Shown: positions 26,141 to 28,157 of the stretch, piece after piece
Position numbering within the stretch: the first letter of the stretch is position 1
Layout of the letters: every line of letters begins with the position of its first letter
From: Leeuwenhoekiella polynyae
GTDB lineage: Bacteria; Bacteroidota; Bacteroidia; Flavobacteriales; Flavobacteriaceae
Direction of reading: 5' to 3'
Length of the DNA: 64,000 nucleotides
Assembly: GCF_004104075.1 (NCBI RefSeq)
Contig: NZ_QOVK01000001.1
Span: forward strand, 372,001 to 436,000
Program-made: the position numbers and the translations under genes
The notes under the pieces: model-generated
Told to the model about the DNA's origin: nothing
Databases searched by the model: none
What the model saw: only the letters and a program-made list of their open reading frames with translations

Positions 26141-27058
26141 TTGGCAAAAACCATACGCATAGGTACCCGCGATAGCGAGTTAGCGCTTTGGCAGGCACAT
26201 ACTGTGCAAGATCAATTACAAGCTCTGGGGTATAAAACCGAATTGGTTTCGGTAAAATCTACCGGAGATCTTATTCTAGATAAGCCACTTTACGAATTGG
26301 GAATCACTGGTATTTTTACTAAAACACTAGATGTCGCAATGATCAACGGGACGGTTGATATTGCTGTACATTCTATGAAAGACGTTCCTACTCAGCTTCC
26401 AAAAGGTATTGTACAAGGCGCTGTTTTACCACGTGCTGCTCAAGAAGATATTTTTGTTTTTAAAGACAACAAAAGCACTGCAGCTTTTGATGAACCGGTA
26501 ACCATTGCAACCGGAAGTCTGCGGCGAAAAGCGCAATGGCTCAATAAATATCCGCACCATAACGTGGTAGATTTACGCGGAAATGTAAATACCCGTCTAC
26601 AAAAAGTGGCGGATAACGAATGGGCGGGAGCTATTTTTGCTAAGGCTGGTTTAGAACGCATCAATCTAAAGCCTGAAAATCACGATATTCTTGATTGGAT
26701 GATCCCCGCACCGGCGCAAGGTGCGATGGTTATCGCCGTTATGGAAAATGACACATTCTGTAAAGAAGCGTGTAACCAACTGAACGATGTGAATGCTGAA
26801 TTAGCAACACGGATAGAACGTGAATTTCTTAGAAAATTAGAAGGTGGCTGTACAGCTCCAATAGGTGCTTATGCTGAAATAAAAGAGGGACACATCTATT
26901 TTCATGGAGCGCTTTTTAGTCTTGACGGAACTCAAAAGTTAGAGATTGAAGAGACCATATCCGTTTCTGAAAGTGAAAATTTTGGAGCCTTGTGTGCGCT
27001 AAAAATCTTAGAGGATGGAGGTCGCGAATTGATGGAAGCGATTAAAAAAGAATTGTAA
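26141..27058 (+). CDS. hemC: Porphobilinogen deaminase (hydroxymethylbilane synthase)
   Basis: A 305-residue enzyme that links four porphobilinogens into hydroxymethylbilane. The dipyrromethane cofactor is attached at C237 (EGGCTAPIGA). Other motifs are IRIGTRDSELALWQA, HSMKDVPTQLP and ATGSLRRKAQW. The start is a TTG codon 3 nt after the hemA stop, since the family N-terminus (AKTIRIGTRDSELALWQA) begins right there and no ATG is nearby; this suggests translational coupling to hemA. Confidence 0.95.
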   Translation: MAKTIRIGTRDSELALWQAHTVQDQLQALGYKTELVSVKSTGDLILDKPLYELGITGIFTKTLDVAMINGTVDIAVHSMKDVPTQLPKGIVQGAVLPRAAQEDIFVFKDNKSTAAFDEPVTIATGSLRRKAQWLNKYPHHNVVDLRGNVNTRLQKVADNEWAGAIFAKAGLERINLKPENHDILDWMIPAPAQGAMVIAVMENDTFCKEACNQLNDVNAELATRIEREFLRKLEGGCTAPIGAYAEIKEGHIYFHGALFSLDGTQKLEIEETISVSESENFGALCALKILEDGGRELMEAIKKEL

Positions 27059-27061
27059 AAA

Positions 27062-27101
27062 ACCCTCATCCTCGATCCTTCTCCCCCAGGGAGAAGGAAG
27101 C
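27062..27101. repeat. Left end of DUF559 cassette: CT-rich tail plus 9-bp hairpin
   Basis: Starting 4 nt after the hemC stop: CCCTCATCCTCGAT, then CCTTCTCCC-CCA-GGGAGAAGG (27077-27097), then AAGC and the ATG of the endonuclease at 27105. Read 5'->3' it has the same design as the reverse complement of the right end (27471-27505): 17 of 23 bases match across tail and first stem arm, and all six differences are transitions. Confidence 0.75.
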
Positions 27102-27104
27102 AAT

Positions 27105-28157
27105 ATGGAAAGAAGTAATCACATAAAGTTAGCACGCTTGCTCAGGCAAGATCTTACCGAAGCAGAAAAAGAGCTTTGGGGGTTGCTTCGTGGTCGCAGA
27201 ATAGACGGATTAAAATTCAGAAGGCAGCATCCTTTAAAAAACTATATAGTTGATTTTTTTTGTTATGAATTAGAACTCGTTGTTGAACTTGATGGCGGGT
27301 ATCATAATTTCCCAGAACAAAAGGAAAAAGATGAACTACGTGATTTGCATTTGAAAGCATTGGGTTATAAAGTGCTTCGTTTTTCAAATGATACGGTATT
27401 CAAAAATCCTAAAGAAGTAATAGAGTCTATTTATGAATATAGCATAATTTACAAAAAGAAGAACAACGCCCCCCTCTCCGTCGGGAGAGGGGCTGGGGGT
27501 GAGGGAAAAACAGTCCTCTCCACAAAAAAACTAACACCTTCTCAAAAGAATTTAATTCTTGGAGCAGGATTTTCAGTTGTGGAATATGACGCCATAAAGA
27601 TTGAACCCTTAGATTTTAAACTTCCGGAGGAATTAAAAAATCTGATTTTCACGAGTAAAAATGGGGTTTATGCTTTTTTAGAGAGAAATCATATTTCTCC
27701 AGAAAAAACAAATTGTTTTTGCGTAGGTTCTAAAACTGAAGGTTTACTTAAAGAAAAAGGCTTCCATGTGATTAAAACCGCTCAAAATGCATCAGAATTG
27801 AGTGATTTTATTGTAAAAAACTATCAAAAAGAACATTTTACTTTTTTTTGCAGTGCTATACGCAGAAAAGAATTACCTGAGAAATTGACTGAAAATCTGG
27901 TGAGTTTTGAAGAGATTATAGCTTATAAGACTCAATTAAATACTAAAACATTCAACAGAGAATTTGATGCCGTTCTGTTTTTTAGTCCGTCTGGAGTAGA
28001 AAGTTTTACTTCAGTAAATACATTAAAAAATACGCTTGCTGTTTGCATTGGCCAAACTACCGCAAACGAAGTACAAAAACATACTGAGCATTTTACCGTT
28101 GCTAACGCTACCACTGTAGAAAGTGTGATCGCCAGGGCGGTAAAAGCATTAAACTAA
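27105..28157 (+). CDS. hemD: DUF559 endonuclease-like domain fused to uroporphyrinogen-III synthase
   Basis: A 350-residue two-part protein. Residues 1-~118 are a DUF559 domain (Vsr/PD-(D/E)XK-like): [20 protein letters not shown], then candidate active-site residues D50, E61/D63 and H67 in [19 protein letters not shown]. Residues ~121-134 ([14 protein letters not shown]) are the translated right-end repeat. Residues 135-350 are uroporphyrinogen-III synthase ([48 protein letters not shown]), which cyclises hydroxymethylbilane. HemD alone is usually ~215-250 residues and starts at 'TVLSTKKL'. No in-frame ATG, GTG or TTG lies at the junction, so hemD seems to depend on the upstream start. Confidence 0.85.
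27471..27505. repeat. Right end of DUF559 cassette, translated within the fusion
   Basis: CCCCTCTCC-GTCG-GGAGAGGGG hairpin (27471-27492) followed by CTGGGGGTGAGGG. Its reverse complement reads CCCTCACCCCCAG then CCCCTCTCCC, matching the left end in inverted orientation. The sequence is in frame and encodes the Pro/Gly/Arg-rich linker between DUF559 and HemD. Confidence 0.75.

Follow-up and report, generated by a model that had tools for sequence, protein, structure and literature searches.

Between hemC and hemD, the window (the whole 64,000-nucleotide stretch of DNA analysed here) carries a DUF559 endonuclease frame set between inverted ends, each consisting of a tail and a hairpin. The features of the locus are as follows.

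26141–27058, + strand: hemC (porphobilinogen deaminase; PF01379/PF03900), the upstream host gene
27056–27058: hemC stop codon
27063–27075, + strand: left outward tail CCCTCATCC (27063–27071) and spacer TCGA, from the sequence
27076–27098, no strand: left hairpin TCCTTCTCCC-CCA-GGGAGAAGGA
27105–27455, + strand: DUF559 endonuclease domain (Vsr/I-Bth0305I fold; PF04480, structure model, PDB 3hrl, 3r3p and 1vsr), which opens the fused ORF
27471–27492, no strand: right hairpin CCCCTCTCC-GTCG-GGAGAGGGG, translated within a 12-residue linker
27493–27505, + strand: right tail, with GGGTGAGGG at 27497–27505, the inverted match of the left tail
27105–28157, + strand: DUF559–HemD fusion ORF, continuous, 350 aa
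27506–28157, + strand: HemD (uroporphyrinogen-III synthase) part of the fusion, without its own ATG (PF02602, residues 151–342)

A sequence-only reading of this DNA had described a DUF559 frame between inverted tail-plus-hairpin ends after hemC, and this is what the sequence holds. Recomputed, its count stays the same: with one arm read as its reverse complement, 27063–27085 and 27483–27505 agree at 17 of 23 positions (74%), and all six mismatches are, by eye, transitions. The cassette starts, as that reading had it, 4 nt after the hemC stop. It does not, however, form an ORF of its own ending before hemD; the frame runs to 28157 and includes hemD. Three GC-rich (≥60%) hairpins scoring ≥24 occur in the window, two of which are the cassette ends, and 20 dinucleotide-shuffled windows contained one such hairpin in total. 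On the + strand of the window, CCCTCA[CT]CC has a single match at 27063 and GG[GA]TGAGGG a single match at 27497. By eye, the ends carry neither a GTAG nor a CGTC tag.

In the 350-aa protein, PF04480 (DUF559) matches residues 7–111 (128 bits) and PF02602 (HemD) matches residues 151–342 (121 bits). No stop interrupts the DUF559 frame as it crosses the right palindrome and enters hemD, the palindrome itself being the linker. From the end of the DUF559 core to the start of HemD, no ATG, GTG or TTG codon is in frame in the window, and the first one after that comes 22 codons into HemD; a codon of this kind before HemD is present in 10 other hemD loci, and cassette-free close relatives have an ATG at the point where the window's HemD part begins. 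If starts are confined to ATG, GTG and TTG, the window's HemD would be obtainable solely as a DUF559–HemD fusion.

A model of the DUF559 domain (15 sequences, pLDDT 87.9) matched PDB 3hrl (NGO0050; E = 6e-8) and PDB 3r3p (the homing endonuclease I-Bth0305I; Foldseek E = 1e-4, TM 0.69), with weaker matches to some mitoribosomal proteins, PvuRTs1I, AbaSI and Vsr (1vsr, E = 0.03). As modelled, the window's DUF559 has the predicted Vsr/I-Bth0305I nuclease fold; a DUF559 gene has already been assigned to the EDxHD homing endonuclease family, according to PMC9403480. A model of the fusion (21 aligned sequences) has two domains with a break at residues 121–132 (pLDDT <50). The break is the translated right palindrome, and this palindrome-coded linker has the low model confidence of a disordered-like segment.

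The hemC–hemD site in related genomes

The sequence-only reading had proposed comparing this junction in relatives, and the arrangement proved not to be universal. Of 13 same-genus genomes, including the window's (G000), six have the cassette (G000, G002, G005, G007, G010 and G011) and seven lack it, six of these with a short spacer and one (G008) with a different ORF. The G008 ORF (L016), at the identical junction, is endonuclease-like (NUMOD4/HNH by eye). Other genera also have the DUF559 cassette joined in frame to hemD (L039, L044, L045, L129 from an uncultured Dokdonia and L131 from Aquimarina mytili), and the fusion is in frame in all 11 hemD loci examined.

Identities of DUF559 and HemD correlate across these loci (r = 0.78; 55 pairs, 11 loci), and the fourfold identities of cassette and hemD are similar. 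In a FastTree of 141 DUF559 proteins, its six hemD loci need one change, a count with no shuffle comparison. The empty sites of G004 (CCCTCATCCTCGATG) and G006 (CTCCTCATCCTCAAAATG) contain left-tail-like remnants in the spacer, so at least these empties read as losses, the remnants probably being scars of loss rather than the original target. Within the sister pairs G000/G003 and G005/G004 (support 99/99 and 100/100), occupancy differs at both hemD and leuS. Given the one-change tree, the DUF559/HemD correlation and the remnants, the window's copy is most likely an old resident of a hemD-linked lineage that was mostly inherited vertically and lost in some sister species. A recent insertion at hemC–hemD in the window's species was rejected on the correlated identities at the 11 loci, the similar fourfold identities and the remnants in G004 and G006.

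In five loci from other genera of the family (L021, L022, L025, L026 and L027), hemC and hemD seemingly form one open frame of 531–549 aa.

Palindromic ends of DUF559 genes

With one genome taken per genus, PF04480 was matched in 60 of the 120 genera of the window's family, many of these matches being weak and partial. The family set comprises 65 loci, 32 returned by searches and 33 fetched; weak or split matches (≤55 bits), a 94-bit partial match at a contig edge (G064:C310) and the second tandem copy at G100:C2 were left out. For a named set, the 80 best-scoring of 557 loci confirmed in named genomes were taken; it is biased towards the window's branch because the search patterns were taken from five proteins of the window's family. 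Hairpins scoring ≥20 within 150 nt were considered strong; 75 of the 80 named loci could be scored for them, the other five being too short.

The sequence-only reading had proposed a scan for such palindromes beside other DUF559 genes, and hairpins flank these genes far above controls in both samples. In the family set, strong hairpins were found upstream of 25, downstream of 19, on both sides of 16 and on either side of 28 of the 65 loci (background: shuffles 9/650, control pieces 7/192). In the named set (best 80 of 557), they were found upstream of 46, downstream of 47, on both sides of 38 and on either side of 55 of the 75 loci (shuffles 27/750, control pieces 9/279). At a score of 20, 37 of 75 named loci and 49 of 65 family loci have no strong hairpin on at least one side.

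The suggestion that end sequence covaries with DUF559 lineage stood in the window's family, where 62 of the 65 loci entered the test (three were dropped for stops or length). At non-orthologous loci, flank similarity rises with DUF559 identity (Mantel r = 0.47, 1,836 pairs, 0/2,000 permutations), as it does with GC controlled and same-genome pairs dropped (r = 0.487, 1,808 pairs, 0/2,000 permutations). In the named set (best 80 of 557) the link is weak (r = 0.156, 1/2,000 permutations; between phyla 0.091, 78/2,000); here L141, whose match lies near a contig start, had a wrong upstream context piece, the effect of which was to mask extra pairs.

A simple inverted pair was considered as the universal layout and rejected. 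In 35 of 65 family loci, the upstream flank matches the reverse complement of the downstream flank better than in any of 40 shuffles, but the direct match is the stronger one in 36 of the 65 and the inverted match in 28, because directly repeated palindromes surround many of the intergenic copies. By eye, in 62 family loci, most hemD and leuS copies have tails directed outward, and other clusters have them directed inward; the tails read as C-rich (CCCTCA, CCCCTAA, ACACCCC).

Ends also occur alone. With ≤3 mismatches, CCCCCTAACCCCCGAAGGGGGAA has 18 matches in the window's genome, 16 in G004 and 36 in G008, and none in G003, G009, G010 or G011; its reversed control has none in all 40 genomes. 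Three of the 18 matches in the window's genome lie in the leuS frame, two being the ends of the cassette there. Solo-end copy number does not follow the presence of the matching DUF559 type: G008 has 36 type-B ends yet no type-B DUF559. Ends without a DUF559 lie in frame in a second LeuS loop (G000, G004) and in HemD itself (G002, G004, G005; eroded in G006), and hemD-type solo ends are rare (1–3 matches in 5 of 40 genomes, cassette ends counted). Two solo ends of the window's genome lie in frames that we named by eye: L277 (C19:17766) in a 585-aa frame that looks like AspS, and L282 (C6:203505) near the N terminus of a 408-aa frame that looks like HisB.

Phages were rejected as a vehicle, with matches in 4 of 50,697 phage records, all below 41% identity; 50 of 72,556 plasmid records match. 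A role as a defence system was likewise rejected, since PADLOC gave weak matches only (DpdF, mREase_II; 17–24 bits; 3 of 4 proteins).

DUF559 units in frame within host genes

In the named set (best 80 of 557), 37 of the 80 DUF559 domains lie in open frames longer than 230 aa, and 35 of these 37 ORFs contain a second, non-nuclease Pfam family (L143 and L147 have none). Hosts include LeuS (7), IleS-like proteins (4, named from domain make-up), MetH (3), HsdR (3), AroC (2) and HemD (2), along with HsdM, HsdS, Lhr, PriA, RecG, SahH, DegT, methylmalonyl-CoA mutase and others. As we read the domain coordinates, host-protein parts stand on both sides of DUF559 in about 25 of the 37, others being N-terminal fusions or ORFs cut by the contig. 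Among the Pfam matches (E ≤ 1e-5) of the 37 ORFs there was no intein (Hint) domain. The open frame of intragenic copies is continuous through both ends, and intergenic copies are free-standing. The sequences show that the units occupy, in frame, loops of host proteins or their N terminus and are read through, with no splicing domain found. The sequence-only reading had likened the unit to REP/RAYT pairs; an extragenic, REP-like position does not fit much of the family, which is often in frame inside genes.

The 75 named loci with full flanks come from Bacteroidota (43), Pseudomonadota (15) and Chloroflexota (6), ten from eight more phyla including Methanobacteriota, and one without a phylum; many of these records, the archaeal one included, are metagenome bins, and single placements may be wrong. 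Gracilibacteria read UGA as Gly, and a RecG–DUF559–RecG frame of a Candidatus Gracilibacteria (L136) spans 829 aa with UGA as Gly and 109 aa in the standard code. In L172 and L187 (LeuS; MetH), two DUF559 stretches lie within one ORF. In L094 and L095, low-scoring DUF559 stretches in LeuS (61 and 49 bits) have no visible palindromes and are likely decayed or domesticated.

The loop of leuS before VFTTRPDT is filled by three DUF559 types in eight of the 13 same-genus genomes and is empty in five. Identity at fourfold sites was higher in the cassette than in the leuS flanks for G009–G001 (65/67 vs 119/180, p = 5e-8), G005–G001 (44/58 vs 73/170, p = 2e-5), G005–G009 (43/57 vs 70/173, p = 7e-6) and G000–G002 (51/55 vs 122/180, p = 1e-4). 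Three pairs with G006 showed no such excess (p = 0.28, 0.77 and 1.0), and neither did pairs with G012, by plain identity only. In 4 of 7 same-type pairs, which share genomes and are not independent, the higher cassette identity therefore indicates transfer between species later than the divergence of leuS. The mobile unit put forward by the sequence-only reading is thus retained for the wider family, in which leuS indicates spread, and not for the window's own copy, which is old and mostly vertical.

At the same leuS site, classical homing with co-conversion of flanks was rejected, as identity in 60-nt bins beside the site does not clearly rise. A clean target-site duplication was also rejected: edges differ between types in the same loop, and the loop itself varies.

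Proposed homing-like spread, its rivals and known systems

With a probability of about 0.62, we consider that the window's cassette is a resident copy of a nuclease-driven, homing-like DUF559 element that is widespread and bounded by inverted tail-plus-hairpin ends. Across the loci compared, ends and nuclease are associated and, within the window's family, covary. We infer both the nuclease's part as driver of mobility and what it cuts: a Vsr/EDxHD-like nuclease would recognize its own type of end or target and nick or cut DNA lacking the unit, and repair would copy the unit in, in a homing-like manner. In-frame insertions in tolerant loops would survive because the hairpin arms, once translated, give disordered linkers rich in Pro/Ser and Gly/Arg. 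The palindromes may accordingly be read as having a dual role, being both the DNA ends that the nuclease recognizes and the coding sequence of disordered linkers. A broader proposal, to which we give slightly less than an even chance, is a splicing-free homing class, bacterial but present also in at least one draft genome of an archaeon, with a Vsr/EDxHD-fold nuclease, lineage-specific tailed palindromes of dual role and a unit able to live inside essential proteins; many short GC-rich palindromes would then be its non-autonomous derivatives.

DUF559 could instead be a Vsr-type mismatch-repair nuclease with a host function, its palindromes being ordinary repeats or terminators and its spread ordinary gene transfer. 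Vsr is among the fold matches of the DUF559 model, and PMC12907096 has Caulobacter VsrA, a DUF559 protein, proposed for very-short-patch repair. The same source describes classical Vsr repair as serving cytosine-5 methylation; however, the window's genome (completeness 100) has no match to the cytosine-5 methylase family PF00145, which the same search finds in 10 of 14 control genomes, and repair of the Vsr type is therefore less likely. Nor would a repair gene be expected in frame inside LeuS, MetH, RecG and others, or end sequence to track DUF559 lineage, and we consider this explanation unlikely. Slightly lower still we place the possibility that DUF559 is a passenger and that the ends, as REP/REPIN-like repeats, are mobilized by a different enzyme such as a Y1 transposase/RAYT. 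Solo ends without a matching DUF559 in G008, and two Y1_Tnp matches in the window's genome, would suit it. Yet none of six scanned DUF559-type tail motifs was found around either Y1_Tnp gene, and one of the two (L287, C18 of G000, RAYT-like) has a different palindrome nearby in several copies (GCGCGAT-NCA-ATCGCGC), making the action of a RAYT on DUF559 ends less likely; the ends, moreover, covary with DUF559 itself at unrelated loci.

The least probable of the three is a domesticated domain, with DUF559–HemD and DUF559–LeuS kept for host benefit and horizontal exchange due to homologous recombination inside the cassette. The age of the hemD-linked copies, their in-frame fusion at every hemD locus examined and the degenerate leuS copies would agree with domestication, but the host genes are unrelated to one another, one leuS loop is occupied by different DUF559 types, and the cassette is dispensable because sister species lack it at both sites.

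The homing-like element that we favour has parts resembling known systems. It shares with EDxHD (Vsr-fold) homing endonucleases of the I-Bth0305I type the nuclease fold, the occupation of conserved genes and the horizontal spread that is indicated at a single site of an orthologous gene, and differs in being a compact single domain with palindromic ends whose intragenic copies show no intron or intein, the frame running straight through. As in REP/RAYT systems (REPtrons), a nuclease gene is framed by tailed palindromes, inverted on both sides of the window's gene and enriched in the family; solo palindromes lie elsewhere in the genome and ends covary with the enzyme within the family. The enzyme, however, belongs to PF04480 instead of the Y1 (HUH) transposases, the two Y1_Tnp genes of the genome being located elsewhere and lacking these tails; the tails are C-rich rather than GTAG/CGTC, and copies within genes are numerous. 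PMC3733652 describes Rickettsia palindromic elements (RPE) as palindromic repeats that have inserted in frame within protein genes. DUF559 units, compared with RPE by description, likewise have palindromes in frame, and in same-genus genomes their ends stand alone in HemD and LeuS, but their full-length form carries a nuclease gene and their hosts span phyla. With inteins bearing a homing endonuclease they share an endonuclease domain in frame inside essential enzymes and sporadic occupancy; unlike inteins, they have no intein domain in the 37 ORFs, and the insert would remain in the protein barring some other processing. In the literature searched, mostly without subscription papers, we found no description of palindrome-framed or in-frame mobile DUF559 units, and there is a real chance that the combination forms a class of its own.

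According to PMC3943268, self-splicing is held to free homing endonucleases to invade conserved genes. If our reading is true, a nuclease living translated inside LeuS, MetH or RecG would break this rule, a large family of unknown function (DUF559) would gain a role and many GC-rich palindromes an origin, and there would be a source from which essential enzymes acquire inserted domains and linkers. At the leuS loop, which is filled in some sister species and empty in others, the homing-like idea can be tested directly.

Other repeats are also seen in LeuS. In G007 (L110), G012 (L118) and G017 (L117), a different palindromic repeat lies in frame in the same LeuS loops (approximately MLNQVQHDE..RHSELDSES), and at leuS site 1 in L100, L103 and L107 short AGAATTC-type repeats lie in empty loops (approximately QNSEFKI).
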